From Bryoerythrophyllum caledonicum (taxonomy: Eukaryota > Streptophyta > Bryopsida > Pottiales > Pottiaceae): DNA of 64,000 bases. Position numbers and translations under genes: made by a program. The stretch's first letter is position 1, and each line of letters opens with the position of its first letter. Below, in pieces: positions 11,047-59,275 of the stretch. The DNA is taken from contig OZ020517.1 of NCBI GenBank assembly GCA_963971425.1, forward strand, positions 24,376,462-24,440,461. The letters are read 5' to 3'. Below the pieces are notes generated by a model. It searched no databases, was not told the DNA's origin, and saw only the letters and a list, made by a program, of their open reading frames with translations.

Positions 11047-13719
11047 TTAACTCCTATGGATACCAAGACAGTTTCACACCAAAAACACTTCAAAATTGTT
11101 GGATTCTAGTGCAATTGTAAACATTAAAATTTTTATAGTAAACCTTTTTTCAAATTGACAGTGTAAATAGGGCTTCAAGTTAGGTTATTTTAGAAATAAA
11201 CTAGTAAAGTAACCTATGGCGGCTAGGAGATTTGAAAAGGTGTTTAGTTATACAAACGGTTAGGATTTGGGTAGTTTTTTTATAGTTATATGGCGGCTGT
11301 GACTTTTGAGATCCAGATTTGAAGCGGTGTCAACTAAACTTTCTAACCAACATAAGTAAGGCTGTGAAGAAAGAAGAACACCACACAACATTGCAGTTTT
11401 ATATTTTGAGTGTGTGAGTCCTTGTCGGTAAGCTTGAGTGCTAGTATTTAGAATAGGCTGAGTTATTGCAACACTGATGGATGTTCAAATCAAAGTCTGA
11501 TGAATTGTGCTTTGCAAGAATAATAATAACATTAATATCTATTATCAAAGTGTTGAATTTAAGAAGACTAGTTAACTGAGAGGAGTTTTGTCAATTAGAC
11601 TAAGGTAGGTGAGATACTGAATCATAGTTGATAGAGGTACAAAAAACAGGATCCAAGTCAAGTTGACTGATGAGGTGATGGAAGACCATGGTGATACATG
11701 AATGTGTAGTGAACAAAAGGGAGACTGTCAAATTGACATGGTTAACTGGAGCGCAACACATGTCAAATTAAAGTGTCACAGATGGGAAAGTGAGAGTTAT
11801 TTTTGGGAATTAAATTGTAGTTGAGTCAGTTGTATAATGAAGTAAACTGAACAATGCATTTCCCTATTAGCAAATTATTTACTGTGCACAATAGAATAAT
11901 TTGAATTATTAAATTAAATTAGAATGATGGCATAAGGAGATGCATCATTTGAAGGCATGGCGAGGAGCATGGCCTTGAAGAGTGTTAAGATGATCCCAGA
12001 GAGAGGAGTCTTAGTTAAGTGACATCATTGTGTAATTGTGAAATAGAAACCAATTGGATTCTGTAGATTAGTAGGCCTAACTAATTTAGTGGAAATCTAA
12101 TTGAAGGACTAGATACAAAATTAATAAATTAAAACTAGCATATGATTGATGAGAGATCTTGTGAGGATTGATCTCCCTCATTTAAGTATTGATTATTGTC
12201 GTTGTAATAATTTAGTTTCATTTCTTCTTGTAAGTCCATAAACGGTATTTACAATCAAGGGAGAATGATGTGAGAAAGAAAGAAATATGTAAATCCCGGG
12301 TATTATAATTATTATTAAAAATGAAATAGGAAGTTGGAAGTGAAAGATGAAGATGTATCGGAAGAGAAAAGCGGATATTGCTTGAGATAAGTAGATATCT
12401 TTATGTGAATGCCTTCTATAGATTGTGATTTATACATATTATAAAGTAAAGAAAATGGAAAGCAAAGTAATGGTGAAACTTGTCTATTGGACCAAAGTAC
12501 TGTCTATTTGACGAGGCTAGAACCGCCTAAGGGTGACATCCCTTGTTACAGTCGAATTGAATTACACCATAACCTTTAAGAGAATGGGACATGATAAGAG
12601 TGAGATTTAGATAATTTATAGTATAGCTTTGGGTTTACTTGGAAGAATACTTTGTGTATTGAAGAATTATCTTCTTGGTGAACTACAAGTGACCATTAAT
12701 TACACCAAAAACGCTAAACGAAAAGACCTTCTCCCGAACCAACCTTATTATGTAGCTTGGGGTTAATTAAAGGATTACAAAATTTAACACTACAGCAATG
12801 AATAAAGAAGGAAATAAAAACTTACATTTCAAGTTTTCAACATAGGATCTCAATTTAGACTTATTACATAACATACTCACAAAATTTTATAAACTTTGAC
12901 ACATGGATTGAAAGATCATAGTGTTTGAAGTCAAGCAAATAGTTCAAAGATCATGGTGTTTGAAGTCAAACAAGTGGTTTATTTTCTTCTCTGTGTTGAA
13001 TAGATCATGAGACTTTGACTTCACTTGGTCTCAAAGTTTTGCACTAAAGTACACAAGGTCTAAATCCATTTCCATAGTGTAAGCATGATGTTAGTTTCCT
13101 AAACACTAGTTTTTAGAGGTAGAAAAGGGGTGTAGCATATCCAAACAACTGTGCAAGGAGTAGAGGTTCAGAAATTGCCAATTCATGTTATAGTTTTGTG
13201 AGAACTTCATTTGTTTTAGATTGATAATCCGAATGGTCAATAAGAAGGTTTACACCACATATTGTTGTGGAAAGATAAAAAGTAAAATTATGAAGATCTC
13301 TAAGTTTTATATGGAAAGAAGAAGTTTTTTTGGTACCTTGCCTAACAATGTGTGACAATGTGTGAAAATGTTTGAGTTGGATTAATATGTTGTTTTTCAC
13401 TAAAGACAAAAACCCTTTTTTTTAATAATATGAAGGGAAAAAATATTACTTGCTAGTATTGAAAATTTCACATTCAATAGAGTGTCCTAGCAAAAGTTTT
13501 TGGAAGTGCCCAACACGCATGCTTTGTTTATTTGAAATCCAAAACCCTATTATTTTTTCATTTAATGTTGGATCTAGGAAAAAATTGCTCTCCCACTAAG
13601 ACCTTAATAATGCCCATCTACAATAAACATTTCAAAGATGAATGTTGGTAATTGACACTATAGGAACCCAACCAAACTTTCAAAAAGCCCATTTTTGACA
13701 CTTGATCCTTTAGGGTTAA
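11047..13719 (+). mobile_element. piggyBac-type MITE (TTAA family), split by an insertion
   Basis: Left border TTAACTCCTATGGATACCAA (11047) and right border CTTGATCCTTTAGGGTTAA (to 13719). The left part runs to about 11113 and resumes at about 12791 (GCAATGAATAAAGAAGG), exactly matching the continuous copy at 32637-33587. So a sequence of about 1.68 kb was inserted later. Net of that, the element is about 0.99 kb. No coding capacity. Confidence 0.75.
11114..12790. mobile_element. Unclassified 1.68-kb insertion inside the TTAA element
   Basis: Defined by interruption of the TTAA-family MITE. The ends (TTGTAAACATTAAAATTTT and AAAATTTAACACTACA) are imperfect inverted repeats, and GCAA occurs on both sides as a possible 4-bp duplication. 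There are no recognisable genes; the sequence is AT-rich and full of stop codons. The superfamily is unknown. Confidence 0.5.
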
Positions 13720-15120: not shown

Positions 15121-15591
15121 AGGTTTACACCACATATTGTTGTGGAAAAAATAAAAAGTGAAAAATAAAAAGATATCTAGGTATTATTTGGAAAACAAGA
15201 AGTTTTTTTGGTACCTTGCCCAACACTGACTGACAATGTGTGAAAATGTTTGACCTGGGTTGGTATGCTATTTTTCACTAAAGACAAGAACTTATTTGAC
15301 AACATTAAGGGAAATAATATTACTTGCAAGTACTGAAAATCTCACATTCAACAAAGTGTCCTAGCAAAAGTTTTTAGACGTGCTCGACTAACCAGCTTCA
15401 TTTGAAATTCAAAACCCTAAAACTTTTTGATCAAATGTCCAATTTAGGTAAAAAATTGTTTTCCTACTAAAGTCTTGGTAATGCCTTTCTATAGTAAAAT
15501 TTTCAAAGAGAAATGTTGGAAATTGACACCATATGAACCTGACCGAACTTTCAAAAAGCCCTTTTTTCACACTTGATCCTTTAGGGGTTAA
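15121..15591 (+). mobile_element. 3' half of a TTAA-family MITE
   Basis: Begins abruptly at AGGTTTACACCACATATTGT, which is internal in the full copy at 32637-33587. Runs to the terminal CTTGATCCTTTAGGGGTTAA at 15591. The 5' half is missing. Confidence 0.75.
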
Positions 15592-30996: not shown

Positions 30997-32257
30997 TTAA
31001 CCCCTAAAAGACCAAGTGTCCAAAAAGGGCTTTTTGAAAAATCGGTCAGGTTCCTATGGTGTCAATTTCCAACATTCCACTTTGAAATTTTTACTACATA
31101 AAGACATTACCAAGAGCTCAGTGGGAAAACAATTTTTCCCTAAATTGGACATTTGATGAAAAAGTTATAGGGTTTTGAATTTTAAATGGGGAGGGCGGGC
31201 ACCTCCAAAAACTTTTGATAGGACACTCTATTGAAAGTGAGATTTTCAGTACTCGCAAGTAATATTATTTCCTTCATGTTGTCAAAAAAAAGTTCTTGTC
31301 TTTAGTGAAAAATAGCATACCAACCCAAGTCAAACATTTTCACACATTGTCACTCATTGTCGAGCAAGGTACCAAAAAAACTTCTTCTTTTCCACATAAA
31401 ACCTAGAGATCTTTATATTTTTCACTTTTTATTTTTTCCACAACAATATGTAATGTAAACCTTCTTATTAACAATTCGGATTATCAATCAAAAACATATT
31501 AAGTTCAAAAACAAATAAAGTGTGAATTAACAAATTTCGAGCCTCCACTCCTTGCACACTTGTTTTGAATATGCTACACCCGGTCTCTACCTCTAAAAAC
31601 TGGTGTGTAAGGAGCTACACTAAACATTGCATTTAGTGTAGTCACACAAATAGTGTAATTACCCTACTACACTATTTGCGAACTTGTTCACAATTAGTGT
31701 TAGTTGCGGCAAGCTTTTTCATACACTAATAGTGATTTTATTCACTGTGGCAAGATTTTTCATACACTAATTGTGCACAAGTAAAAAAAAAACCACCCAT
31801 TTTTACTGCAATTCACATATAGTGTAATGTTTCACATTTAGTGTAATGTTGTGTCGTTACACTAATTGTAATTCTTCCTTTTAGTGTAAGGGTTCGTATT
31901 TTGTGTAGACGACACTAAATGTGATTTTTAGTGTAACATCATGCTTAACAAGATGGTAATAGATTTAGACCTTGTGTAGTGAAATTTTTTGACACCAACT
32001 GAAGTCAAAGTCTACTGATCCACTAAACGCAGGGAAGAAAATGAACCATATGCTTGACTTCAAACACTATAATCTTTTAATCCGTGCGGTCAAAGTTTAT
32101 GAAATTTTGTGCATGTATTACTTAATAAGTCTTTATTGAGATCCTACGGTCAGAACTAAAAATAAAAGTTTTTGTTACCTTCTTTATTCATTGCACTAGA
32201 ATCCATTAATTTTAAAGTGTTTTGGGTATAAAACTGTCATGGTACCTTAGGGGTTAA
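30997..32257 (-). mobile_element. TTAA-family (piggyBac-type) MITE with nested element
   Basis: TTAA borders at 30997-31000 and 32254-32257. Ends are CCCCTAAAAGACCAAGTGTC and CATGGTACCTTAGGGG. Orientation is opposite to the copy at 32637-33587, with which it is over 90% alike by eye. It is interrupted by the 316-bp element at 31618-31933; the remainder is about 0.94 kb. The left end matches the 7-kb piggyBac (CCCCTAAGAGCCCAAGTGT) at 17 of 19 positions. Confidence 0.85.
31618..31933. mobile_element. 316-bp CACTA-like MITE
   Basis: Starts CACTAAACATTGCATTTAGTG and ends CACTAAATGTGATTTTTAGTG, with TA on each side (31616-31617, 31934-31935). The uninterrupted sequence at 32960-32990 proves the borders. 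More than ten ACACTAA / TTAGTGT motifs fill it, as in CACTA subterminal regions. CACTA elements usually make 2-3 bp duplications; a TA duplication also allows a mariner origin. Confidence 0.7.
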
Positions 32258-32636: not shown

Positions 32637-33587
32637 TTAACCCCTAAGGTACCGTGACAGTTTTATACCCAAAACACTTCAAAATTAATGGATTCTAGTG
32701 CAATGAATAAAGAAGGTAACAAAAACTTTTATTTTTAGTTTTGACCGTAGGATCTCAATAAAGACTTATTAAGTAATACATGCACAAAATTTCATAAACT
32801 TTGACCGCACGGATTCAAAGATTATAGTGTTTGAAGTCAAGCATATGGTTCATTTTCTTCCCTACGTTTAGTGGATCATAAGACTTTGACTTCAGTTGGT
32901 GTCAAAATTGTTCACTACACAAGGTCTAAATCTATTACCATCTTGTTAAGCATGATGTTAGCTCCTTACGCACCAATTTTTAGAGGTAGAGACCGGGTGT
33001 AGCATATTCAAAACATGTGTGCAAGGAGTGGAGGCTCGAAATTTGTTAATTCACACTTTAATTTTTTAAACTTAATATGTTTTTGATTGATAATCCGAAT
33101 TGTTAATAAGAAGGTTTACATTACATATTGTTGTGGAAAAAATAAAAAGTGAAAAATATAAAGATCTCTAGGTTTTATGTGGAAATGAAGAAGTTTTTTT
33201 GGCACCTTGCCCGACTATGAGTGACAATGTGTGAAAATGTTTGACTTGGGTTGGTATGCTATTTTTCACTAAAGACAATAACTTTTTTTTTACTATATGA
33301 AGGGAAATAATATTACTTGCGAGTACTGAAAATCTCACTTTCAATAGAGTGTCCTATCAAAAGTTTTTGGAGGTGCCCGAGGTGCCCGCCCTCCCCATTT
33401 AAAATTCAAAACCCTGTAACTTTTTTCATCAAATGTCCAATTTAGGAAAAATTGTTTTCCCACTAAGATCTTGGTAATGTCTTTCTGTAGTAAAAATTTC
33501 AAAGAAGAATGTTGGAAATTGACAGTATAGGAACCTGACCAAACTTTCAAAAAGCCCATTTTTGACACTTGGTACCTTAGGGGTTAA
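32637..33587 (+). mobile_element. Full-length 951-bp TTAA-family MITE (reference copy)
   Basis: TTAA at 32637-32640 and 33584-33587. Ends are CCCCTAAGGTACC and GGTACCTTAGGGG, perfect 13-bp inverted repeats. There is no ORF of note. Subterminal ATCTCAATAAAGACTTATTA and TTTGACCGCACGGATT match, inverted, the right subterminal part of the 7-kb piggyBac (49390-49560). The centre (GATAATCCGAATTGTTAAT, ACATATTGTTGTGG) matches 46780-46830 of that element. Confidence 0.88.
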
Positions 33588-33596
33588 GCATTTAGT

Positions 33597-33775
33597 GTAG
33601 GAAAGCACTTAGGATAGAAAAGTGTTCACCCTTGAAAGGGGGAAGTAGTTCTATTACGCTATGCTATGTCCTGTGGTCATGGGCTTAGTGAAGAGAATGA
33701 ACAAACACTATATTCATGCCGGACCCGGATTGGGACGGGACCGAAGTACTTCTTCTTCTTTCCATGCTTGAGATG
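33597..33775 (-). repeat. Copy of the kinase-like gene's 3' end
   Basis: Read on the minus strand, CATGAATATAGTGTTTGTTC, AAGCCCATGACCACAGGAC and GTAATAGAACTACTTCCCCC match 50510-50373 downstream of the kinase-like pseudogene and 37832-37998. It sits ten bases beyond the MITE's TTAA. Confidence 0.6.
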
Positions 33776-35177
33776 CTGTATCTAAGAGAGGAAATAAATT
33801 TTTAGTTTTGTTTGGTCTTTGACTGGATGTGGAATGATACTATAAAAGTGATGGAATATGTTTTCGGATACTGTGTATTGATTGGATTGAGTGATAATTG
33901 GAGATTTTGTACGGATGACAACTGGAATTGAATGGTTGGGGAGCTTGTGTGAGATCTGTGAAGTGAAAGTCAATTGGTAAAGAGATGGCATGGGTGCATG
34001 CCATGGCCATGCTTCCAATTGGTAACGAGGTTATTTAGTTATAGTTTAGATTGAATTCTATCGGTGGTGGAGCCGAACTGAAAATCATATGTAGAATTAA
34101 ATCAAATCTGGTGAAAGTAAAATTCGAAACTCAAAAAAATAATAAAAACAAATCAATGAAGGAAGTTATGAAATAAGAAGAATAAATGGGAAGTTAGAAA
34201 AGGGATGTCGTTGTAGAAAAAATGAATATTACTTGTTACTGGAGAATTCTATATATGAAATGTATCCATTATGTTATAATAAGAGTATAACTAACAACCT
34301 AACTACACCAACTTAGCAAATGACCTCCCTAGCAATCAAATCCGACCTCTTTGGATATTTTCCAATTGGGTGAAAATTGTATTCGACAGTTATTGGGCAT
34401 GAGAAATATGAAATTTTAGGAACTTTGCAACATTTTTCAACCGGTAAAAATTCCTGACACTTTCACACCATAAACACTTCAAAACTGCTTAATTTAGTGG
34501 TCAAAAACAAATTCCTTTCTATGTGTCCAATGAGAATAAAAATTACATTTCCATTTTTAAAATTCAAAGAACTTGGAAGAAATATTGCAAGCACAAGAAC
34601 ATGTCCAAGATGTGTAAAAGTGCACCTCATTATTCTAGTTTTTGAAGAGTATTCATATATCCTTTGGGGAAGCACAATAAAGAAAATTGTGTGAGAAAAT
34701 TGTATATTCCTATGCCAACCCTTGCCTTTATGTTAGTAATTGGGACCACAAGGAGAAGGTGACCAAACTTGGATAAAATGGAACTACTCCTAAACTTTTT
34801 GGGAACTTGGAATTCTAGACAAAAGCTTTAGCTTGCATTGAATATAGCCAAAGAAAATTGATTGCCACTATTACTTGTGCATTTCATAGGCGTAGATTAA
34901 AAAGTATGAAATTCCTTAACCTATATGCATTTATGTATTTAAAATCTCACATTCTTTTCTCTTGAACTCTTTCCTTTTTGAGAAGGACTTTCAAGACAAC
35001 TCTAATAAACTAACAAAAACATGCACAAAACCTTCTTTATTTACTACATTTAGGTGATACAAATTCCTTGATACCAATACACTTTTTTGATGCATTAGAA
35101 GTTTTCTAAAAGTGAAAAGGGGTGATCCCGCATGGCATTATATACTTTACAAACTTCTCTTAGTAACAATGAACATA
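33776..35177. other. Repeat debris, no gene
   Basis: At 34445-34500 there is a piece of a TTAA-family left end (GACACTTTCACACCATAAAC). At 34725-34950 is a copy of the 20740 repeat. No gene is supported. Confidence 0.4.
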
Positions 35178-35958
35178 CAGTGACTCACAAAAGTTGTTGG
35201 CCGCCCTAAAAATGGCTCTCATAAATTGAGAAATTAAAATTATAAAGTGAAATTTGGACATGTTATAATACATAAGGGAATCTACCTTCATGATGAATTT
35301 CACTTTAAATAGACTATTGTAAGACACATTTTTATTTGAATGAAATTTCTATGGAAATAAAAACTTTTTTGTGAGAAGTCAAAATGTTTCATTTTTTAAA
35401 TAGGAAGAATGTACATCTTGACTTGAGTCACATGTTACGAGTTTCATGAATTTGGGATTTTTATTCATTGAGATCTTATTGACTGAAATTTGACCCTAAA
35501 ATTTTGAAAACTTTATTTTTTACTCCATAAATTGCAAAAAAATACAATAAAAACACATATAGTTATTTGATTTTATTTTGTGTTTTTATTATATTTTTTT
35601 GCAATTTATGGAGTAAAAAATAAAGTTTTCAAAATTTTAGGGTCAAATTTCAGTCAATAAGATCTCAATGAATAAAAATCCCAAATTCATGAAACTTGTA
35701 ACATGTGACTCAAGTCAAGATGCACATTCTTCCTATTTAAAAAATGAAACATTTTGACTTCTCACAAAAAAGTTTTTATTTCCATAGAAATTTCATTCAA
35801 ATAAAAATGTGTCTTAAAATAGTCTATTTAAAGTGAAATTCATCATGAAGGTAGATTCCCTTATGTATTATAACATGTCCAAATTTCACTTTATAATTTT
35901 AATTTCTCAATTCATGAGAGCCATTTTTAGGGCTTCCCACAACTTTTGTGAGTCACTG
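35178..35958. mobile_element. 781-bp fold-back element, Tc1/mariner-type ends
   Basis: Two 380-bp arms (35178-35557 and 35579-35958) are nearly perfect inverse copies around a 21-nt spacer. Ends CAGTGACTCACAAAAGT / ACTTTTGTGAGTCACTG are flanked by TA (35176-35177, 35959-35960). CAGTG ends plus TA are typical of Tc1/mariner. The whole unit could fold into one long hairpin RNA if transcribed. The few arm differences suggest a young insertion. Confidence 0.9.
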
Positions 35959-36299
35959 TATCTTCATACTCTCTTTCTTTCCATATTTAAATGTCCCATG
36001 GTTTTTTTACTTTTCTATCCTCTTTGAAAAGGACTTTTAGGACATCTCTATTGTGGCAAATTTTTGCATCAAGATAAATATAGTGTAGAGAAATTTCACA
36101 AAAGAATAACAAATTATAGCAAATTCATTTTCACCTCACCTAACCAGGTTATTATTGTTGCTACTCCACAACATGGGAACTCACCAAATATACAAGGGAG
36201 CGCTGCACCAAGGCACACGCTTGGGAAGGTGGGAGTGAGAAGGTGGGAGGAGGGTGAGAGGGGTTGCCCCTAATTTTATGTTGGAGGAGAGCTCTCAAG

Positions 36300-37716: not shown

Positions 37717-38838
37717 TTAACCTCTAAAGGAAAAAGGAAAGGACCAACTGTCAAAAATGGGCTTTTTGAAAGTTCCGTCAGGTTCCTATGGTGTCAATTT
37801 CCAACATTCCACTTTGAAATTTTTACTGTAGAAGGAAGAAGAACTCCGGTCTTCGAAGGAGACGGGCGTGGATGTATTGTTTGTTCATTCTCTTCACTAA
37901 GCATATGGCCACGGGACATAGGCTAGTGTAATAGAACTACTTCCCCCTCTCGAGAGTAAACACTTTTCTACACTAATTGCCTTAGAGACAAATGTAGAAG
38001 GACATTGCTAAGACCTGAGTGGGAGAACAACTTTTTCCTATATCCAACATTTGATGAAAAAATTATAGGGTTTTGAATTTCAAATGGGAAGAGCGGGCAC
38101 ATTAGGCAACTCTAGAAACTCTTGTTGGGTCACTCTATTGAATATGAGATTTTCAATACTCGCAAGTAATATTATTTTCTTTCATATTGTCAAAAAAAAG
38201 TTCTTGTCTTTAGTGGAAAATAGCATATAACCCAAGTCAAACATTTTCACACATTGTCGGGCAAGGTACCAAAAAACCTTCTTCTTTTCCACATAAAAAT
38301 TAGAGATCTTCATATTTTTTGTTTTTAATTTTTTCCACAACAATATGTGGTGTAAGACTTCTTATTGACCATTTGGATTATAGATCTATAGCATGATAAG
38401 TTCACAAAAAAATAAAACGTGAATTGGCAAATTTTGCACCTCCGCTCCTTGCACAGTTGTTTTGAATATGCTACACCCCTCTTCTACCTCTAAAATTTGG
38501 TGTGTAAGGGACTAACATCATACTTAACACAATGGTAATAGATTTAGGCCTTGTGTAGTGCAAAAATTTGATAGCAAGTGAAGTAAAATTATGTTGATCC
38601 ACTAAACGTAGGGAAAAAGTTTAACCATTTGCTTGACTTCAAACACTATAATCTTTCAATCCGTGCGGTCAAAGGTTTTTAAATTTTGCAAGTATGTTTT
38701 TTTTATAAATCTTAATTTAGATCATATGGTGAAAAATAAAAAATAAAAGTATTTGTTTCCTTCTTTGTTCATTGCATTAGAATCCAATAAATTTCAAGTG
38801 TTTTTGGTGTCAAACTATCACGGTACCTTAGGGGTGAA
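37717..38838 (-). mobile_element. TTAA-family MITE carrying a kinase-gene fragment
   Basis: Left TTAACCTCTAAAGG at 37717 (a second TTAACCC at 37710) and right GGTACCTTAGGGG with TGAA instead of TTAA. It is interrupted at about 37832-37998 by a copy of the kinase-like gene's 3' end. The rest is colinear with 30997-32257. Confidence 0.75.
37832..37998 (+). repeat. Kinase-gene 3'-end copy inserted in a MITE
   Basis: GTATTGTTTGTTCATTCTC, CTAAGCATATGGCCACGGGA and AATAGAACTACTTCCCCCTC match 33597-33775 and 50373-50510. The flanking MITE sequence (TTTTTACTGTAGA / ATGTAGAAGGACATTGC) continues on both sides, so this was inserted after the MITE. Confidence 0.65.
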
Positions 38839-38872: not shown

Positions 38873-39745
38873 TTAACTCTTAAACCCTATATTTTCTTGA
38901 CAATTTTACACCAAAAACACTTCAAAATTGTGAATTCTAGCGCAAGGAGTAAGGAAAGAAACAAAAATATGTATTTCTAGTTTTAACCGTAGGATCTTAT
39001 TAAACACTTCATAAATAACATACTCACCAAATTTCATCGAGTTTGCTTGCACGGATTGACATTTTATAGTGTTTGAAGTAGAAACATTGGTTCATATTCA
39101 TCCTTGGGTTGAGTGGATCAACAAACTTTTACTTCACTAGGTGTCAACGTTTTGCACTACACAAGCTCCAAATTTTATGTCATCATGTTGATCATGATAC
39201 TAACTCCTTGTGCACCAATTTTTAGAGGTAGAGAAAGGATGTAGCATATTCAAAAACATTGTCCAAAGAGTGAAGGTTCAAAAATTGTGAGTTCACGTTT
39301 TTTTTGTTGGGAACAAAATATGTTTTAGAATGATAATCTGAACGGTCAACAAGTAGGTTTACACCACACCTTGTAACCTAAAAAATAAAAAGTGAAAAAT
39401 ATGAAGATCTCCAAGTTTTATGTGGAAGAGAAGAAGTTTTTTTGGTTCCTTGCCCAACAATGTGTAGCAATTTGTAAAAGTCTTTGACTTGGAATAAATT
39501 GCATTTTCTCTCTAAAGAAAATAAATGTTTTTGGACAATATGAAAGGAAACAATATTACTTCATAGAATTGAAAATCTCAAATTTACTAAAGATGGCATA
39601 ATTGTTTTAAAAATTATACTTCTATGTACCTCTTGTCTTCTTGCATCGCTGTACAAAATTTCAAGAATTCCAAATATAAATTGCAACCATGAAAACGTGC
39701 CCAAGATTTACAAAAGCCCACCTCGAGACTTTTTCGTTTAGGGAT
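38873..39745 (+). mobile_element. TTAA-family MITE, diverged
   Basis: Starts TTAACTCTTAAACCCTATAT at 38873, just 35 bp after the previous copy. Family landmarks are AACACTTCAAAATTGTGAAT and TTTTTAGAGGTAGAGAAAGG. The right end is unclear, perhaps at GTTTAGGGATTAA near 39745. Confidence 0.6.
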
Positions 39746-40075
39746 TAACATACAAAACATGTACTAAAATTTAGCAAGACATACACCTTTGGATAGAAGA
39801 TTCTTCAACTAACATCTTTCATTTGGAGGGTATTTCAATATCTGAACATTATCATGCTCAAATACAATACCATACATGTAGTATATATTACCATTTTGTA
39901 ACTTCTCAAGCACCTAGTAAGGTTCTAAGTAAAAATTGTCATGTGTTATTGGATTGGGCTCAACACAAATACAAACTTCTGTAACTATCGTATACATCAA
40001 TTTCTACACATTGTATGTCAAACACATAGAAAACATCATATTCCAACCAAGTGTGGCTTCTCTGACCTTGAAGGG

Positions 40076-40700
40076 TTAACCCTTTAATTCTTTTGACAAT
40101 TTCACACAAAAAAAACACTTCAAATTGTTGATTCTAATGTAAAGAGTGGAGAAGGAAACAAAAATGTTTACTTCCAATAATAATGAATATATCTTAATTA
40201 AGACTTCTTTAATAACATTCTTGCGAAATTTTATAAACTTTGTGTGCTTGGATTGAAAGATTATAGTGTTCAAAGTAGAGAAAAATGTTCACTTTCTTCC
40301 ATGCGTTTAGGGGATCAGCTGACATTGACTTTATTTAGTCTCAAATTTTGCGCTACACAAGGTCTAAGTTTCTCCATCATGTCAAATATGATCTTAGTTC
40401 CTTGGACACCAATTTTTGGAAGTAGAAAGAGGGAGCAATTTCAAAATAATTGTGCGAGGAGTGGAGATTCAAAAATTGCCATTACACGTTTATGTTTTAG
40501 TGAACTACATATGTTTTTGAGATAGGATCCAAATTTTCAATAAGAAGGTTAAGACCACATCTTGTGGTAAGGAAAATAAAAAGTAAAAAACTTAAGATCT
40601 CTATTTTGTGGAAAACAAGAAGTTGTTTTAGTACCTTGCCGGAAAATGTGTGGAAATGTTTGACTTGGATTGAAATGCTTTCTCACACTAAAGACACAAT
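40076..40700 (+). mobile_element. TTAA-family MITE, diverged and right-truncated
   Basis: Starts TTAACCCTTTAATTCTTTTG, with AACACTTCAAATTGTTGATT and GGTCTAAGTTTCTCCATCAT in family order. The right end is not recognisable beyond about 40700. Confidence 0.6.
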
Positions 40701-41503
40701 TGTATTATGACAAATCAAAGAAACTATTATTATTTATCTATATGAAATTTTTGATGTCAATAGAAAATTGTAGCAGACTTTTTGGAGCTACTCAACACCC
40801 CAATTTTGAAAATGTTCCAAACTTATACGAATCAAAGCGGAAGTTTTGTATGGGATAAGAGAGATCAACAATCACAAAACAATGAAGAATCTCTTAAAAA
40901 AATCATCCCAAATTTAAGACCAAAATAATCTTGCATGTCCATGTATTTTAGTATATTTTGTGTAGTTTGAGTTATATTTCTAGCTTTTCAAGGAGTTCTA
41001 TAATCCCAAATCATGATATGATTTGTGCAGAGTGTTCATATAATGTGTGCGCAAATTTTTAGTTCACATTTCACAACCTAATTCCTCATGGATTTCATGC
41101 AAATTGAGTTTTAACACCTCTAGAGTCCCATTTTGGGTCCCATGGGCAATAAAGGGATTGCCCTTTAGGGCCAAACGATCATATATGGGTCGTTTTGGCA
41201 CAAGAACCTTTGTAGCAAGCACTAGAGGCCACCTCAAAGGAAAAAATAGACCATAACTTAGACACGGAGGAAGATGGGCATGTATTGAAACCATTGCCAC
41301 GACAATTAGTGCAAGCATCGGCGAGCAACAGCGATTTCCTTGATACGAGTATGTAGATTTTCAAGCTGAAATGTATCCAATGCGTAGATGTCATCATGCA
41401 TGATCTTCAACACTTGTAGATTCTCAGAGGCAACAAAAGCTCATTGGCCTCAAGAAAGGGATAAGGTTGTCGGGCTCTACAAAACAATGAAATAATATCA
41501 TGC

Positions 41504-42276: not shown

Positions 42277-42577
42277 TTGACGATTGATAAATATCTCAAG
42301 AAACAAGACCTCTATAACAACCTTGACACAATCGCAGAAAACTTCCCTAACATAGAAAAATGGACTGGCAACAACAACATAGACAATGAACTCTCTACAA
42401 ACATCTGGAAGAATGCCACCATCTCCGACTCGCAAATAACATGCCTCATCAAATTCCGTACCGATCAATTTATAGGAAACGCCCGAAAACAACTCTTCTT
42501 TGGAATAGAAAGATTCCCATCTATAACATGCCCCATATGCACTTCCACGGACCCCGACACATGGCTACATGTTTTAC
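42277..42577 (+). pseudogene. LINE ORF2 C-terminal region, part 1
   Basis: Plus-strand frame with FRTDQFIGNARKQLFFGI and the start of a zinc-finger CPICTSTDPDTWLH, as found after the reverse-transcriptase domain of non-LTR retrotransposons. It is cut at LHVLL by the TTAA of the 7-kb piggyBac element and resumes at 49591. The RT domain itself is not in the window, so this is a 5'-truncated copy. Confidence 0.7.
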
Positions 42578-43319
42578 TTAACCCCTAAGAGCCCAAGTGT
42601 ACCTGCGGGGTACGTTCTGGATTTTGGGCATGTACCTTTGAATGGAAAAAATGCTCCGATTCTTACGAAAATTTTACAGGGAATTGTTCTTGATGAAATC
42701 TATTTGGGGATCTTTTCAAAAGTGGATTTGGATATATGGTTCAAAAGTTATTAACCATCAAAGGTGAAAGTGGGGACTCTGGCCTATAGGGGCAGCCATG
42801 TCAACCAATGGAATTTGAGAACAAAACTGGACCACTATGGTCGGTTAGAAAGGGCGAGGAAGAGGGGGCAACAGAAATCATGGGTGGCAGTGAAAAGAAG
42901 TTCAAGTCTGCACTGTTGAGCTCGAGGTCCAAACACTATCGATTATCTAATATAGTAATTTTTTATTTAAAAAATATATTTAAAAAATATATTTATATTA
43001 AAAAATTCAGATAATTGTTGGCAGCCAAAGCTGCGGACCAGGAATGAGAACACAACAGTCTTCTTCAACAACTTGAAGGTGCGACCATGCATCAATACAC
43101 CACCCTTCTTTAGCAGCTTGATAATGCATTGTGAAGATATAGACTTGAAGGTGCACTCTGAAGGTGCGGATGCATTGACGTAGTCTACACCTTTCTGACC
43201 CACCGTCAACGCCGTACACATGCTCACAGCTGGAGCTCCGCCATTTGCTCCTCCAAGCGGAGTGATTACCTACAGCTTCACCAGCCCACGTCACCTGCAA
43301 CTCCACTAGATCAACTCTG

Positions 43320-43660
43320 ACTTTGTCGGTCAAGCTGAACCTCGTGAAATTATTATCGCGCATGGAGACTTGGTCATCATGCAAGAATACAATGCAAGAG
43401 CATACAGTGCAATGCACAAGTTTCAATAATGCTACTTCAATGTTCACCTTCCATAGACAAGCATCATCAACAAAATTCTACATAAACCCATGGTATCACA
43501 AGTATCAGTCACAGAGTTGACACGTTGTAGATCTTTCGGAGTGGAAAGAGACTCGGTTCACTAGCGTACCTGAGGAGCTTGAGCGTGAATATTGTTGGGA
43601 GGACGCATGCAAATTCAAGGAGCTGAAGGTATGTACGTTCCTGATGAGGTGAGTGTGGAA
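43320..43660 (+). other. Possible captured host exon inside piggyBac
   Basis: Frames with good residue patterns occur: HGDLVIMQEYNARAYSAMH near 43365, then after shifts VVDLSEWKETRFTSVPEEL and YCWEDACKFKELK, ending at AAG followed by GTATGT (43630), a strong splice donor. This looks like a decayed gene exon. A 2OG-oxygenase (AlkB-like) origin of the first piece is only a faint resemblance. Confidence 0.25.
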
Positions 43661-44099
43661 GAGCTTTGTTGGCCTCCAGAATTCCTGCACAACATCGATT
43701 TCAACAGTGAAAATAGACCCAAACGAGTGAGATTACACATTCAAGCAATTGTGAAAGGAGATAATCCTGGTACTACATACATGGAGGATGAAGAGCTTGG
43801 TATACACAGGAGAGACGGAGAGCATGGCACAGTGACAGAGGATATGTACACTACCATTGAGAGAGAGGAGAGAGTAACTGGCATTGAGAGGAAGTTGGAG
43901 AGCTTCACACAGTGAGAGAAGAAGTTATTTTCCTTGAAGAAGACGTCGAGGAGGAGGAGCGTGGAGATCTAGCCGTTGAAGCAAGGAATACATGCATGGG
44001 CGGGGTTCAGTCTGGGGAGGCGCGCCAGCCTGCTCCTGCATTAGCGTGGACATGAGGCCTGTCAATGCGCTCCGACAGTCTGTGTCTGCGGCGGCCTAC

Positions 44100-44560
44100 G
44101 GGAAGAAGGCGACATGGACGAGGTCTCGCGGGGGGGAGGGGGGTATCGAGAGGGGCAAGGGAGGCAAGGGGGGTATCGGGAGTGGCGGGGGAGGGTATCG
44201 GGAGGGGCGGGCGGGGAACTGAGAGGGGCAAGGGGGGCAAGGGGGGTATCGGGGTGGAGGTACAGGGGGACGGGGGGGAAGGGGGGGGGAAGGGGGTATT
44301 GAGGGCGGGTTCAGGGGGGTATCGGGGGTGGGTTTAGGGGGGGTATTATGAGAGGGGTTAGAGGGGTTATTAGAGGAGGGGTTAGGGGATATTAGGCGAG
44401 GAATTTGGGGGTGTTAGGGGAGGGGTTTGGGGGGTGTTAGGGGGGTATTAGTGGAGGGGTTAGGGGGGTGTTAGGGGGGTATTAGTGGAGGGGTTAGGGG
44501 GGGCGGGTGGGTATTGGGGGGGGGTGGGGGAATACCAGGGGGGGTAGGGGGGTATTACGA
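44100..44560 (+). repeat. G-rich array (GGGGTATTAGGGGAGGGGTT)
   Basis: Long runs of G4 to G9 separated by TATT, TTA, TATC or A. In-frame parts encode Gly/Arg-rich repeats (GGYREGQGRQGG). There are dozens of potential G-quadruplexes on the plus strand, directly upstream of the transposase. Confidence 0.85.
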
Positions 44561-46396
44561 GGGTTTTAAGGATGGGCATGGGGGATATTGGGGGGAAAGG
44601 GAGGTTTTTGAGGATGGTTATCAAAGTGGAACTAGAGGCAATCGAGGAGGGAATAGAAGGGGTTGGGGAGGGATGAGAGGGAGTCGAGGAGGAATGAGAG
44701 GGGATTGGAGGAGGAGACATGAAAGTAAGGTTGGAGGTCATGCATGAGTGGAAGGGAGCCTTGAAAGGGTGGGGGTGGACATGCAAGGTAGAGGAAGGAC
44801 AATTCAAGAAGACATTAATATTGCGGATCATGACAAGGATATTGGTATTATAGATATGATCATTCAACATTATGAGGATTATAATGATATTGTGGGCGAA
44901 TGATATGGCAAGGAAGGAATGCATGAACAAACAATTCCACATGGATTTGGCCCTATTTTACAACCACATATTGATGGGGAAGAATTGAACCTTCCAATTT
45001 TACATGACGAGAGCGATGATATTTATAAGAGTTCGAGTGAGGACAATGGTACAATTCTTGGTGAAGGATATTGACATTCCATGTTTGAAAGTATTTTTGG
45101 TGATATGTTTGTACATGGGTATGAAAAGACAACCAAATATGCAAAGTTATTGGTATCAGAAAGATTCGGTTCTCCATTGCTCTACTATATCAAACCTAAT
45201 GACAAGAACCCGATTTTTCTCCATTATGAGATGTTTACATGTTACTGATGCAAATACGTATGTAAGAAATAGAGAGCTTCCTGGATATGACAAAATAGGG
45301 CAAATTCGATGGCTCGTAACTTCTATACGGGATAATTGTAAAAGAATTTGGCATTTAGGTAAATTTTGTACGGTGGATGAAATGATGGTTAGATATAAAT
45401 GTATATATTACCCACTACGTCAAAATATGCCACAGAAACCGCAAAAGTGGGGAATAAAAATATGGTGTGTAGCATGTTCTACTACAAAGTATGTTTGGAA
45501 TTTTGAGGTGTATTGCGGTAAAACACCGGTTGCGAACAATCTTCCACCAACTTCACGAGGAGAGCCTCAACTAGCTCACAAAGTTGTTTTAGACTTGGTT
45601 CAAGACATTGGACATAGAGGACGTGTTTTGGTCATGGATAATTATTTTACAAGTATAGTGCTATTCTTGAGTTTATTAGATCGTGGCATTTATGCGACAG
45701 GTACAATTAGATCTAATAGAGTTGGCATTCCTAGTATATGTAAAAATATTAGAGCATTTGCTAGAGAGCGATAAGGTATTTTTGCGTGGAGAATGCATTC
45801 ATCACGGAAATGTGCATGCGTCATTTGAAAAGACAAGAAACCTGTTATTTTGCTTTCTATGCATGCATTGCCTCGAGTAACTCTTGGTTTTTCAGAAGTT
45901 ACGGTTCCTCGACAAAACGAAGCCATTCGTGAAAATATAACGACATCACCAATTCATTTGGAATATACTATACATATGAGAGGTGTGGATGTTGCCGATC
46001 AACTAAGGGCGTCGTATGCTACTCAAGATCGCACGCACAAGTGGTGGCATAGGATTTTTTTTTTCTTGCTAGATATGACATTGATAAATATGTATGTTAT
46101 TTATGTAGAAAAATGCAAATCCTGCTCTCCACCTAGGATCCTCTAACACATTTACAATTTATGGAAGAAATGTGTAAGGCATTGACCAAGAATTGGCAAA
46201 GAGGAGACGTGCGTGAAGTTTTTGCAATGTTTAATCGAGGATCCGTATGTTATCCGGTAATATCGGACAATCCTCGTGGGGTATGTGTTATTTGCAATGC
46301 ACAACCTCGTACTTATTGTCCAACATGTGGATATAGATTCATGTGTTTCAAAAAAGGGTGTTTCCAAATATGGCATGAGCGCCTCAACCGTAGATA
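44514..46396 (+). pseudogene. piggyBac (PGBD/DDE_Tnp_1_7) transposase, lightly broken
   Basis: Cut-and-paste transposase of the 7-kb element. The N-terminus is Gly/Arg-rich (GGVGGYYEGFKDGHGG, RGSRGGMRGDWRRR), then, after TGA at 44745, acidic (HDKDIGIIDMIIQHYEDYND, HDESDDIYKSSSED). The frame shifts near 45040-45100 into the catalytic domain: first Asp in FCTVDEMMVRYK, second in VLVMDNYFTS, third in MRGVDVADQLRASY with THKWWHRIFFFLLD. In that frame two stops occur, TAA 45772-45774 and TGA 45826-45828 (replacing Trp before KDKKPV). One further shift near 46130 leads to the C-terminal Cys-rich finger (CVICNAQPRTYCPTCGYRF, CFKKGCFQIWHE). All catalytic residues remain, so inactivation is recent. 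Introns are not needed to explain it. Confidence 0.88.
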
Positions 46397-47159
46397 GATA
46401 AATGTCTAGTTTGACTGTTAATAGCATATGTCAATTTATGTATTTTTTAATACATAAACAAAGAATGTTTTTTGTGAATTTACTATCTATGTCTAACAAA
46501 TATTATGAGTTTATGTATATCACACAAATGTCTAACAAAATTTTGTGCCTAACAAATGTCTACCAACTGTCTATATCTAACCACTATCTATGCCTAATAA
46601 ATGTCTATGTCTAACATACGTCTCTAACAAATGTTTATGTCTAACAAATATTGGTGTCTAATATATGTGTTTCATCCATATATTTCATTAATACAACATA
46701 TTGTTGATTTGCACTCCTAATTCAATTTTTTTTTGACATATCACGATTAATTTATTGGAAAACGGATTAAATATTGAATGATAATCCAAACGGTCAACTT
46801 AAAAGATTTCGCCATATATTGTTTTCAAAAGTTAAAAATATCAACATATTTTGATTTTATGTAGAAAAGATATAGGGCTTTCCCACCCTTGTCTAGGATG
46901 TATCAATAGTGTTTGACTTGGATGTCCAAATAAAGTTTGAATATTACATCCACAAACCACGTGAAAGTATTTGTTCCAAATAACATGTGAAAAAATCATT
47001 TGTTTTCCAAACATGCTTTCATATTGTCAAATAAGTTCACATATTTCTTACTACAACATCAAAGATGAGGAGAAGAAAATCATATGATTGCATTTCAAAA
47101 CCATTACATGCCTAAGGTAGTTTAGAGTAATCACTATACCTTTGATGCAAAATCGAGAA

Positions 47160-47900
47160 AATGAACTTCTGAGAATGTAATTGTGGAATCTTCTTCAAAA
47201 CTTGGCCGAGAGAATTTGGTAAATATTTAAAAAATTCATCGTATAAATTAAAAGATGAACACTATCAAAATAAAAAACATGGTACGACAAAGGTTCATTT
47301 CATCAATCAAAGGTTGATCCTAAAAGCTTTTGATTCATAGACTACATATTCATTAAATAATCTCTTGGTCCTTTAGGGAATAAATTTACATGGAATAGAA
47401 CATAGATATTTATTACAAAGGATGAAAGAAAAATTATATTTTTCATAAAACTACCACCAACATCACTTTCTGATATTTAACATGAAATAAATGATAAAAT
47501 CTATATTATTTTGGAGGAAAAATACTTACATGGAGGGTGAAGGAAGGAAAGGGTATGAATGATGGATATTTGGAAATGTAACTGTAGTATCTTCGTCTAA
47601 AAGTATTTGATATGTTGTGATAAATATGATTTGAAATTTTATTGTACAAATTGAGAGATGAATACAATGAAAGAGTGAAAAAAATTGTACCATGAAGGTA
47701 CACTTCATTAGAAGAATACATATTATAAAACATTCTAGAATCTTTTGATCAATGGAGTACAAAATCATAAAAACGTATCTTGGTCTTTTAGAGGTTCATT
47801 TTGCAAGACATAGACAATAAATTTTCATTACGAAGGATGGAAAAAAAGATGATGTTTCATAAAAATGAACCACTAATATATTTTTATAATTTTTTCCAAG
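47160..47900. repeat. Tandem duplication inside piggyBac
   Basis: Two diverged units of about 390 bp (from about 47160 and 47555) share AATGTAA(T/C)TGT, GTATAAATTAAAAGATGAA / GTACAAATTGAGAGATGAA, ACATATT near CATAGACTA, and CTTGGTC(C/T)TTTAG. Non-coding. Confidence 0.6.
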
Positions 47901-48579
47901 AAGTAAAATAATTTAACTACTTAGGGCAATAAGACATACACCAAGCTGGCATGAAGGGAAGGGTGTGAAAGAATATTCAAACTGGTCCAAATGGAAGAGG
48001 TCCTGTAGCACGTAAACATAGGCCGCCAAGTCAACCTCCAAGGTAGTCTTGGGCCGGCCTATGTCGCCATACTACTTCATCAATTTACAAAAGTGAATCA
48101 GATAATCAAATCTATTGTGAACAAAGTTAAAATGCAAAATAAACATAGAGGAAAATTGAAAGAGGGAATTGAAATTATATGGAATTTTTTTAAAATATGA
48201 AAAAATAAATCTATCATGATTTTATTGTAATAAAATATTAATATGTTGAATTTTCAATTAAAAAAAAGTACACAATTTATTACGGTAATTTTGTAATACG
48301 ATATGCCATGGTCCCTTTCAACACCTGCGTGTCGATATAATATTTTTTAATGCATGTGTTTCGGATACAATGGGTATCACATGGTATCACCTGACATTGG
48401 ACGGATATCACCTAGATGTTGTACGAGTGTCACTATGATATTACAGTGGTATCACCTAGCCAAGTCCTTTGAAATTTCCAAAATATTGTACGACTTCCCA
48501 TTTTGAATCAATTATGTACAAAAGCGACCACAACGTAGGATAATAAATTATATTTAAATATGTGAAAAGCAATCAAACA

Positions 48580-48800
48580 AAAAAGAACCCAAAAAACATG
48601 AACACAAGAAATGAGAATGGAAAAGAACAAAAAAAAACATATAAAAAAACAAAAAACAAAAAAATAAAAAAACCTGCCGCCCACTGTCAACGCCCCTCCA
48701 AGGTGGAGGAAAAAAAAAGAAAAAAGAAGAAGCAAATAACCCGCCACCCGCAGTCGACGCCCCTCCACGCTTGCACAAAAAAAAAAAAAAACTGTGGAAA
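48580..48800. repeat. A-rich stretch with GC islands
   Basis: Poly-A-rich sequence with short islands such as CCCTCCAAGGTGGAGG and CCGCCACCCGCAGTCGACGC. Encodes only low-complexity peptides; not a gene. Confidence 0.5.
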
Positions 48801-49590
48801 TTGCCGCCATCAAGGCAGTAGCCTCGCTGCGGTGGGTCCCGCGTACCACAAATGAAGAAGTTATGTTTATTTCTTTTTTATTGAATGTTTTGAAGACTCT
48901 TTTTACATTCGAAGTCTAATCCATGAAGACCCCGACTTCAAGTGGAGTGGGTAAATGACGTGGCCCTATATATTATGAAGTGTGCCCAATTTCAAGCACT
49001 GCCCTTCCCCATAATGCTTCATTTATTCCATAAATTCATGAAAATTAGGGATTTCACTATTTTTAGTCGTTTTTTCTTCTTAAATTAGTGAAAAAATAAA
49101 TTGAAAGTTCACACCGTTGGGATTCTCAAATGCAACAACTTGTATGAAACAAAGAATTTCATATCACTTATGTAGTAATTGTCATCATTTTTACCCCCTT
49201 TCACTAAAGTATATATTTCTACACCTATTACCCCTAGTATGGACCTCAAATTTTGCACACAAATAGCTAACAACATATGAGTCATATTTGTAAAAGATTT
49301 GATCACATTTCATTGTAAAAGATAGAAGATATACCTAGTCAAAGTAGGCTGACCTTGTCGGGCAAGGAGGGAAAAATGCTTTTCTTTGCACTTCAAACGC
49401 TATAATCTTCACATCCGTGCGGTGGATTGCATCCAAAATTGTTTAATAAGTTCACATACATGTCTATTTTAAGATTGTATGGTTAAAAGTATAAAATTAG
49501 ACTTTAATGTCAGATCTTGTTGCCACTTATTGATAATGGCAGTTTTGAAGTGTTTCATGAGCGAAAATGCTCTGGGCCTTTAGGGGTTAA

Positions 49591-50212
49591 ATGTCATAAC
49601 CACCACATACACTCCCTAATTGTCAAAAGACATAACAAAGCCGTATGGGAAATCCGTTAACTAATTACCTCCCATAACAAATTGAGATGTTTTATCCTCA
49701 TGAATGCCGGCACCTTTAACAACAATCCATAAGAAAATATGGTTCCACCATGGCTACTCCCATGTACATGTGAAACTCAACGATGCCACTGCAATGCTCG
49801 ACTCAAACCAAACATACTATGCGTTAGAGGCCTACCATATAATGACCCCCCATCCGACCACATTAATCAAGACTACACCATTCAATTCATCGAATTTACA
49901 TACTGTAATGACAGATTCTCCCCAGAAACAATTGAAAATAAAATCAACAAATACCAACCCCTTATTGATGACATTACTGCCCTCGGATGGAAAGTGGACC
50001 CCCTTATTGTAACCACAACCGACGCACGTGCCACTACCTTTATCCCATCTATAAAAACCCTAGAAGATACCTTCAAAATTCCTATTGATACTGTTACAAT
50101 CACTTTCAAAAATATTAACACCATTGCCATACAACATGCTATGTCCATCCTTCTACATAAACGCAAAATTGAAAACAACCAAGCCCTCTCCGATACACAA
50201 GACCCCCAATAA
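49591..50212 (+). pseudogene. LINE ORF2 C-terminal region, part 2
   Basis: Continues the frame of 42277-42577 beyond the piggyBac insertion, completing a C-C-H-C finger (KCHNHHIHSL) and RHNKAVWEIR, typical of LINE tails. It then has LKPNILCVRGLPYNDPP and a terminal domain with WKVDPLIVTTTDARATTF, ending at TAA after SDTQDPQ. Stops at GAAATCCGT TAA and AATCCA TAA show decay before or after the insertion. Confidence 0.75.
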
Positions 50213-50372: not shown

Positions 50373-51800
50373 GTCACATAGTATCTACTCTCGAGAAGGG
50401 GAAGTAGTTCCAGCTTACTAATTCCTTGTCCAGTGGGCATGGTCTTAGAAGTGGAACGAACAGACACTTTATTCACGCCGGCCTCCTCCGGAGACCGGCG
50501 TTCTTTGTCTTGACGATTGATTTGAAGAATGCCGAGTCAGATTCTCTCGACCAAATAGCTTTGGTCATCCACCGAATAGAGTATGAATCGGCAAGTTGGG
50601 TGTAATGGTGTCGCCGTTGCATCACATTCAAGGCCGTTTCCAAATTTTGTGGGCTGAATTTGTAAAACAACTCTAAAGCTACCCAATGTCGTGTACGGCG
50701 TTGATTGTCAAGTTCCGTGTCAGTCCGAAATCCATATTTTGATGGCTCTTTGTGTGACACTCGGCTCGCAATTCCCTAGTCACAAACGTCAATGAAGACG
50801 GACCCTGGTTTCTCTGGAGGAAAGTAGAGAAGCACGTTTGTGGGAGCAATGTTATTATGAATGACATTTGCCTTGTAGACTTGGGCCATGGTGTACATCA
50901 AAGCCCAAGCAAGTCTTGCCCTATTCGTTTGAAAGGCTAAGATCTATGCAGTGTCCTCTGCCAAAATGTATGGAGTTGAAAGGATTGTGTTGCTTGAAGC
51001 GGCCAGATTTGCCTTTGAATCAACGATTTTAAAATGGACCCAACTACCACCATTCCGCCACAATGTGTACGCATCCATATTCTTTGTATTAATTTCTGAA
51101 AACCTTATAAATCTTAGGTGTGCAACATGACATATCATGGCTTCGTGACACCATTGTCTAAATTTCTCCTTTGGATGGGACGCCGTTGGCATTTTCCGGG
51201 CAAATTCCATGTTTGCCAAAATGGCTTCACATCCACCATGTGCGCCTTTTGAACCCTTCCATATCCACCAATGGCATTATATCCGGAGAGTCCATAGACT
51301 CCGACATCTTCTCGAAGGAATTGCACGTTGTATAACATATGCATCTCCACGGTCGACTTCACTGCTTGTTCATTCCAAGGCATGCCTCTCGTACGAGAGG
51401 TTGAAAAGCTGCTGACTAAAGTTTTCACACCCTCGAGGAACTTGCGAAGTTCTAAGTCTCGAGGGAGATGATGGCCCCCTCCAGGTTTTATTACCTCGCA
51501 ATCGAATACATGCGATGCATTACTCGTGCATTGAGTGACCACTCTCTCCATGAATGAGGTATAATGGTACATGGTGTATGCGTCCTTGTACAAGTCAAAA
51601 GTCTCTAGAGCGCGTTCAAATTGTAACTTGAGGTAGACTACTTGTAGGTACATGATTCCAAGCTCTTCCTTCTCCAAGTACACTTGACGGAATCGCACCA
51701 CGTCAGTTTCACACCACCAACGATAATATTGTAATGCCACACCTCAAAGAAATGCAATATATTCCTTCGATGGATACCCCACGTCCTCCTCATGCGCAAA
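50373..51800 (-). pseudogene. Protein-kinase-like gene, decayed
   Basis: A minus-strand reading shows a kinase fold in order: glycine-rich loop AIGGYGRVQK (about 51270), Lys region FARKMPTASH, helix C-like KEKFRQWCHEAMICHVAH (Glu), catalytic loop IHNNIAPTNVLL near 50860, metal site VFIDVCD-stop-GIASR and then VALELFYKF. In the catalytic loop the usual His-Arg/Asn-Asp is HNN, so the catalytic Asp is lost. TAG codons at 50944-50946 and 50776-50778 (Trp expected) and a frameshift near 51135-51220 break it. An unrecognised N-terminal part (YRWWCETDVVRFRQVYLEK) precedes it. Its 3' end (50510-50373) recurs in two transposon-rich loci, so the gene may itself be part of a mobile unit. Confidence 0.7.
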
Positions 51801-53065: not shown

Positions 53066-53247
53066 TGTGACGTGGAAAGTGGTATGACGTGTCAACATAC
53101 GTGTTTTTCCATTGGATAAGTTGTAAATTTGATTCAGGTTTTGTAATTTTTTTTACACGCAACTGTCCGCTAAAAAGTGTTGTCCGTTCTGTTCGTCTGT
53201 TCACTGTCTTTGGGCCCCTGCTTGTCTATGTAGACAACCGTGCTATC

Positions 53248-53395
53248 ATCTTCATATCCGTGCGGTGGATTGCAACAAAAAACCCATGGCATGTGTATAT
53301 AGAAGTCTATATAAAAATCTTATGATTAAAAGTCCAAAATTTCACTTTAAAATGTGATTTTCATGCCTCTTATTGACATGTAATGTCTGCCTGTC
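53248..53395 (+). mobile_element. piggyBac right subterminal fragment A
   Basis: TCATATCCGTGCGGTGGATT and TCTTATGATTAAAAGTCCA match 49410-49510 of the 7-kb element. Ends without the terminal repeat. Confidence 0.6.
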
Positions 53396-53396
53396 C

Positions 53397-53631
53397 ACTC
53401 ATCGCAAGGAGGAAAATGAACCATTTTCTTGACTTCAAACGCTATAATCTTTCTATCCGTGCCATGGATTGTAGCAAAAATAAATGGTATGTTTACATGG
53501 AAGTATATTTAAGATCCTACGGTTAGAAGCCCAAAATTATACTTCAAAACTAGATTTTTTTGCCACTTGTTGATAGTATAGTTTTAGAGTATTTCTAACG
53601 GAAAATGCCAAGTTAGGGTTTTAGAGGTTAA
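53397..53631 (+). mobile_element. piggyBac right end, fragment B
   Basis: Starts near TCGCAAGGAGGAAAATG and runs parallel to 49360-49590 (CTTCAAACGCTATAATCTTT, GATCCTACGGTTAGAAG, TTGTTGATAGTATAGTTTT) to a terminal TTTTAGAGGTTAA (TTAA 53628-53631). Fragments A and B are tandem, suggesting repeated insertion or internal duplication. Confidence 0.7.
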
Positions 53632-56876: not shown

Positions 56877-57773
56877 ACCTGGTCTCGTTTGGATGACACC
56901 GGAGTTTTTCGTTTCTCACTGAAGAGTCATTGAATGAATGGAAGTGCTTGGTGGTCTTATCCGTCAACCAAGTGTGGAAGAGCTTTGTGGTCTTTCACAT
57001 CAGTTGGAGGTTTCTTTGAGAGCCTTATCTGTCATTGTTTACATTGTCTCATTTGTATGCTCATGGACATTGTATTTGTTTGTGTTTGTGGATGGATGGA
57101 GTGACTTTTGGATACGAAGAGTTGATTGAAGGAGTTCGATGATCAGTTTTACTATCAAGTTGGATCTATTGGATGATGTAGTCTGTTGCGATGTGATACT
57201 AACGAGAACAAGACGGTTTCTTTCTGCTGAAAGAGCAGATCAATGACGGTCCGTCTCCACATCTCACTTCCTTTTTGGCTTCTTCCGGTTGGGGTTACAC
57301 ATAGCTAGCTGAAATTTGCAGTTTGTTAGGGTGTTGACATCTTAGTCTGGAGCTCGTGGATGATTTTTTTTCTATATTCTGAATATGACCTGATTTTTTG
57401 AGAGAAGAATGACCACCCTTGACCAACACGGACAAAGTATGTGCAGCTTTTGAAGTTTAAGGCATTCTTGAACTGGGAGGTTTGGCTTCCTGAATCCAGA
57501 CGACAGATCTGGAATATGCAGGGCTCTGAATGTGAGGGTGACAGGCTGATCTGTGATGATGCAAGAATGACGACCAAACATGCGTCTGGCTGTAGAACCC
57601 TCAGAGAACTCACCAAACTCGTCTCCAATCATGTAAGCTTCCCTTTTGTCATTGTCTTGTAGAAATGCCCTTTCATACATCACATTGTCACCTTCTTGTA
57701 GGACCTGTACGTCTAGAGATGCTGATGCTCAGCCTGTCTAAGCTGCAGAAGGAGAAGAAACACCCTGTTTGGA
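56877..57773. other. Intergenic region CPBP to DUF642
   Basis: Contains the CPBP 3' UTR and one more copy of the genic repeat. A 73-codon open frame at 57441-57662 has no recognisable features. No TATA box is convincing. Confidence 0.35.
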
Positions 57774-59250: not shown

Positions 59251-59275
59251 TCGGTAGGCCTATGATCCATGATCC

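Follow-up and report, generated by a model that had tools for sequence, protein, structure and literature searches.

Positions 42578–49590 of the 64,000-nucleotide stretch of DNA analysed here (the window; positions 24,376,462 to 24,440,461 of contig OZ020517.1) are almost certainly occupied by a dead class II transposon of the piggyBac superfamily, about 7 kb long, which was inserted by cut-and-paste at a TTAA within a long interspersed nuclear element (LINE); we put the probability of this reading at about 0.97. It is also rather likely that in the host, a land plant and probably a moss, several piggyBac lineages coexist that have been mobile recently and encode oversized transposases (open frames of 805–1059 aa with long N-terminal extensions), that the lineage of the window element and of its relative L038 has, 181 nt inward of one end, a conserved site in common with thousands of short derivatives, and that piggyBac ranks among the DNA transposon groups that have done well in this genome.

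Ends of the element and its target site

The first-pass annotation had placed the element at 42578..49590, and these coordinates are right to the base, with TTAA and inverted ends at both borders. The ends start with CCCCTAA and form 14-bp inverted repeats matching at 12 of 14 positions, so that the element carries the short inverted ends with CCC as well as the TTAA target-site duplication of the piggyBac superfamily. The features of the element and of the interrupted LINE are as follows.

42286..42577, plus strand: target LINE, upstream part, ending in WLHVLL
42578..42581, no strand: left target-site duplication TTAA, read from the sequence
42582..42595, plus strand: left terminal inverted repeat CCCCTAAGAGCCCA, 12/14 against the right end
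43589..44563, plus strand: partly Gly-rich, decayed remnant of the transposase's N-terminal extension; the assignment is weak (31% to the L038 open frame, with low complexity and numerous stops)
45064..46137, plus strand: transposase catalytic core (PF13843), 85.8% to the L038 open frame
46137..46394, plus strand: C-terminal Cys/His-rich finger with the final residues, in a different frame
49390..49409, minus strand: conserved subterminal 20-mer AAGATTATAGCGTTTGAAGT, its start 181 nt in from the outer end
49573..49586, minus strand: right terminal inverted repeat TGGGCCTTTAGGGG, 12/14 against the left end
49587..49590, no strand: right target-site duplication TTAA, read from the sequence
49587..50212, plus strand: target LINE, downstream part, resuming with KCHNHH and having two stops of its own

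As a chance control, the flanking 14-mers were compared for 17,256 pairs of TTAA lying 300–12,000 bp apart in the window. Twelve pairs reach a match of at least 12/14, and two of these begin with CCCC: the 7-kb element itself and a short element at 32637–33587. Nine of the ten remaining pairs are inside the inverted pair 30997–33587 or a palindrome near 35 kb. The TTAA on both sides and the matching CCCCTAA ends, as first described, are thus upheld by the repeats and by this control.

Interruption of a LINE

Joining 42577 to 49587 with one TTAA kept had been proposed to restore the frame of a LINE; indeed, the joined flanks read WLHVLLKC without a break. Among 351 LINE homologues found in the protein database, 120 were listed and compared at the joint: 109 are gap-free, two have a gap within ten residues and nine do not reach it. 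In the host genome, the best 129 LINE copies, scored out of 9,253 first-look candidates, all cover the joint at 85–90% identity, and at the DNA level three of them can be aligned gap-free along 909 bases, with just one TTAA where the flanks meet (89–92% identical). LINE copies lacking the insertion therefore exist and do run across the junction; this insert-free comparison is made with paralogues within the same genome, and it identifies the LINE as the target.

The element almost certainly entered the LINE at TTAA by cut-and-paste, duplicating the TTAA, and its transposase gene decayed after insertion. For piggyBac of Trichoplusia ni (T. ni), the available part of PMC7351741 describes cleavage by a transposase with three catalytic aspartates (DDD), four-base hairpins at the ends, integration into unpaired TTAA and seamless repair of the donor. 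By analogy, a DDD transposase would here have freed the 3′ ends, formed four-base TTAA hairpins and joined them to an unpaired TTAA target. The TTAA duplication, together with the single TTAA in the insert-free paralogues, is the footprint of this mechanism, its chemistry being carried over from the T. ni element.

The target LINE is, at a guess, 5′-truncated. Because its family is abundant, with 9,253 first-look candidates and open frames of up to 3,757 aa among the matches listed, it may itself have been active recently.

Transposase gene of the window copy

The open frame at 44989–45774 matches PF13843 (DDE_Tnp_1_7) with an expectation value (E) of 4.4e-50. When the decayed gene is read through, the match improves to 3.2e-61 and no other Pfam family reaches its cut-off; in the PDB, nothing but T. 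ni piggyBac (1.8e-21) and the core of piggyBat from Myotis (9c0f; 5.4e-17) is matched up to E = 1. Thus the transposase, once searched against the profile, does not fall outside piggyBac. All of the Asp motifs claimed for it are present: TVDEM, MDNYFT and MRGVD align with the matching motifs of T. ni piggyBac (6x67), the catalytic residue numbers being presumably D268/D346/D447. The Cys-rich finger announced with them is also there, in the window copy as in the open frames of L034, L038 and L039, but in the window it sits in a reading frame different from that of the catalytic core.

PF13843 is carried by all 44 homologues of a first set of database proteins and by all 120 listed out of 173 in a second. 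Among the database homologues, P0165 is 57% identical to the read-through over 98% and P0166 58% over 84%, while P0043 reaches 84% over 168 residues. No family was found in a PHROGs scan of the window open frame, and a scan of viral contigs with the transposase alignment gave 12 pattern matches, none of which was confirmed. PF13843 had no match in 14 control genomes either, which says little as plants are not known to be among them.

The core is interrupted by two stops (TAA at 45772 and TGA at 45826), its frame shifts near 46137, and about 250 bp are missing at about 45064, where, in five sibling copies in the genome, the catalytic core is preceded by N-terminal coding sequence. For these reasons the window copy is not coding-intact and lacks the uninterrupted frame of an autonomous element; its earlier description as structurally complete holds for the ends and not for the gene. 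Tandem G-rich repeats contribute to the stretch at 43589..44563 listed above as an N-terminal-extension remnant.

Relatives across the host genome

The search of the host genome (437,360,962 bp in 894 contigs) with PF13843 gave 305 first-look candidates, 116 of which were scored. The PF13843 matches number 120 and belong to several lineages; 47 are free of stops within the part that matches, some being partial, and four pairs look like the two halves of a single gene. The five siblings (L029–L033) are 94.4–95.5% identical to the window element over about 4.5 kb, and their Kimura two-parameter (K2P) distances from it are about equal (0.041–0.044). Four of them keep the gene and both ends within one stretch, and in L029 the left part is split by other sequence.

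Other relatives retain long open frames. L038, on contig C8, is an element of 7,557 bp with TTAA on both sides, ends matching at 14/14 and a 1059-aa open frame that has the catalytic triad and the finger and is 83–86% identical to the window protein. L034 and L035 (6,555 and 6,476 bp; open frames of 813 and 805 aa) are 99.4% identical over 5,761 aligned bases and 100% over 355 more, and their flanks differ on both sides. L039 and L040, with open frames of 981 and 988 aa, are 98.4% identical in different flanks and belong to another lineage, as their proteins are 35–38% identical to those of L034, L038 and the window. Because near-identical copies occupy different sites, the sequences suggest recent movement of both pairs, and the open transposase frames would make working proteins.

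The long open frames of L038, L034 and L035 are PF13843, in the same layout as that of the window element. Overall, the relatives are elements of 4.1–7.6 kb whose open frames, of the lengths given at the outset, have long N-terminal extensions that are partly Gly-rich. TTAA is found on both sides in nine of ten relatives examined, a set in which the far ends of L034–L036 were later revised or proved to be those of a nested copy; in L036 the apparent far boundary belongs to a short copy nested there. Closely similar as they are, L034, L035 and L036 differ in how many GGGEVGGE-type repeats their N-terminal extensions contain.

A tree was built from 34 rows: the window copy, 23 transposase homologues out of 147, eight open frames of the host and two reference stretches. 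In it, the window copy, L038 and P0043 group at 100/100 with the L034 group next (96/95), while L039/L042/L008 and L041 branch elsewhere. The two reference proteins form long branches whose placement is unsure. Contigs C5 and C13 are absent from the listed transposase, LINE and short-copy matches; they may be small or of other origin.

Short relatives and a shared subterminal site

With at most one mismatch allowed, the window holds 23 occurrences of the motif TTAACCCYTAA against 3.45 expected, and this excess led to the short relatives. Twelve further family-like stretches, some of them weak fragments, were found in the window and make up about 22% of its 64 kb together with the 7-kb element. 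The following were delimited.

12787..13719, minus strand: short relative F, one end truncated
15121..15591, minus strand: short relative G, a fragment with one end
30997..32257, plus strand: short relative A, with a nested insert at about 31617–31934 and TTAACCCCTAA at both ends
32637..33587, minus strand: short relative B, 951 bp, with TTAACCCCTAA at both ends
37717..38838, plus strand: short relative C, with mutated ends TTAACCTCTAA / TTCACCCCTAA and a repeat like a short interspersed nuclear element (SINE) inside
38880..39748, minus strand: short relative D, with decayed ends
40077..40735, minus strand: short relative E, a fragment with one end
53243..53631, plus strand: relative I, which of all stretches in the window most resembles the element's right end (73% over 211 bp)

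These short copies are linked to the full-length elements through one end. A profile built from one end of four short copies, with the 7-kb element excluded, matches the right end of the window element over 212 positions (7.3e-14) and the right ends of L029–L033 and L038 (1.2e-11 to 6.1e-18), while 200 random sequences with matched dinucleotide composition gave no score at E 10 or better. Within this end lies the 20-mer AAGATTATAGYGTTTGAAGT, whose start is exactly 181 nt away from the outer end in the window element, in L032 (with one mismatch), in L038 and in A and B. It has 4,295 exact copies in the host genome, whereas its reversed control has none, and TTAACCCCTAA stands 158–182 bases before it at 1,804 places genome-wide (control, 0). 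For one short type, 812 of 862 exact CCCCTAAGGTACCAAG ends (94%) directly follow TTAA. For B, 40 of 9,128 candidates in the host genome were scored: 40 rows, its own included, cover at least 914 bases at 92–100%, and four more rows are partial.

Probably, the short copies are non-autonomous piggyBac elements mobilized in trans by transposases from this group, and the 20-mer that lies 181 nt in from one of the ends is a putative binding site for the transposase.

Weighing of the explanations

Long open frames in some genomic relatives would also be expected if the transposase region were a domesticated, PGBD-like host gene and not part of a mobile element. In the window, however, the frame is broken and is enclosed by inverted ends with TTAA duplications, and siblings and near-identical relatives are found at other sites with different flanks. 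Domestication is refuted for the window copy by the stops and by the inverted-repeat/TTAA boundaries, and the chance left to it is negligible. Slightly less remote, and still most improbable, is the idea that the TTAA-CCCCTAA ends come from another superfamily and that the piggyBac gene is a mere passenger: TTAA targets are used by other superfamilies too, and the element is long (7 kb) and mostly devoid of open frames. Against this, four of the five siblings keep the gene with both ends, and the layout is shared by L038, L034 and L035, whose long open frames are PF13843 ones. The split of the LINE might in principle be an artefact in which unrelated contigs were joined at a TTAA, as the assembly does have N gaps (17406–17605 and 60605–60804); the element itself contains no N, the two flanks join into a single LINE frame precisely at one TTAA, and elsewhere in the genome there are siblings bounded by the same ends, so that an artefact is scarcely credible.

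Several observations nevertheless weigh against a piggyBac transposon with mobile relatives and short derivatives. Judged from its reading frame, the transposase gene of the window copy is dead and cannot code for a working transposase, and all five siblings carry stops in the PF13843 match. In L034/L035 no more than eight bases, CCCCTAAA, are common to the two ends; ATAA replaces TTAA at one side of L031, and L030 has a mutated end. Only the best LINE copies were scored, so that interrupted copies would not show. The left end of the window element matches the short copies over only 23 nt (E = 0.001), and it was not found up to E = 10 with a profile of the other end of the short copies. Furthermore, the polarity of the ends relative to the gene is reversed in L034 compared with L038 and the window element, and no 20-mer turned up close to the termini of L034, L039 or L042 at up to four mismatches; both observations leave more than one candidate for the transposase that moves the short copies.

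Comparison with known piggyBac elements

piggyBac is a widely used transposon for footprint-free gene delivery and is best known from animals (insects and mammals). The T. ni element (6x67/6x68; PMC7351741, in its available part) and the window family are alike in TTAA target, CCC ends, DDD core and C-terminal Cys-rich domain. They differ in size: the T. ni chain has 594 aa and its element 2,472 bp (available text of PMC10140906), against 805–1059 aa and 4.1–7.6 kb here. Unlike T. ni piggyBac, the elements in this genome have the long, partly Gly-rich N-terminal extensions and, in the lineage of the window element and L038, the 20-mer 181 nt inside one end. piggyBat has simple 15-bp inverted ends, a likeness to the window family, according to the part of PMC8086355 at hand; it differs by its distant sequence and its long branch in the tree.

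The statement of the first-pass annotation that piggyBac is rarely described in land plants is fair without being absolute, as plants are already counted among the hosts in the accessible portions of PMC8086355 and PMC10140906. In the fern Ceratopteris, a repeat table has 1,230 pieces labelled PiggyBac that amount to 122,417 bp (PMC6890710, accessible portion). These plant elements are of the same superfamily and have a plant host in common with the present ones; as far as the available parts of the three papers go, they are named or counted, whereas the present elements are documented with their ends, target sites, open frames and copy counts. Also close to the window transposase are the database homologues P0165, P0166 and P0043, the last of which groups with the window copy and L038. 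No description of intact bryophyte piggyBac elements with ends, target sites and open frames was found in a literature search that reached few subscription papers; matches for Niphotrichum were to the word “piggybacking” and not to the transposon.

What is unusual here is the element size, the N-terminal extensions, the 181-nt site and the copy number. With near-identical copies at different TTAA sites and with open frames, a natural plant version of piggyBac is at hand for study. In this host one could test whether plants support footprint-free excision, and ask how their silencing allows a single group of DNA transposons to become so numerous.

Other features of the window

Besides the transposon, the window holds genes of plant type, namely ALMT (PF11744, 4e-27) and DUF642 (3.4e-12), as well as an Rce1-like protease and a KAI2-like gene. 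The families ALMT, DUF642 and KAI2 are typical of plants. For the KAI2 exon, the best four PDB matches are Pp-KAI2-like proteins, Pp being the moss Physcomitrium patens; that the host is a moss as well is guessed from this single gene. Scans of the window for Rfam families (at the gathering threshold) and for tRNAs returned none.

Two DUF642 frames stand in tandem on the plus strand at 57726–60430, and the second runs into the N gap at 60605–60804. On the minus strand, 112–1626 encodes a transposase of PF13359 (DDE_Tnp_4; 3e-26), which we take to be of the PIF/Harbinger type, and an adjoining second frame has no Pfam match. A SINE-like repeat of about 130–160 bp is found at 33602–33759, at 37830–37983 (nested in C) and at 50380–50505, after the 3′ end of the LINE. 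The insert nested in A (31617–31934, about 317 bp) has ends resembling ACTAAA/TTTAGTGTA. The large, near-perfect palindrome at 35130–35990, in which the TTAA-adjacent 14-mers match at 13–14 of 14 positions across 35234/35902 and neighbours, is perhaps another foldback element.

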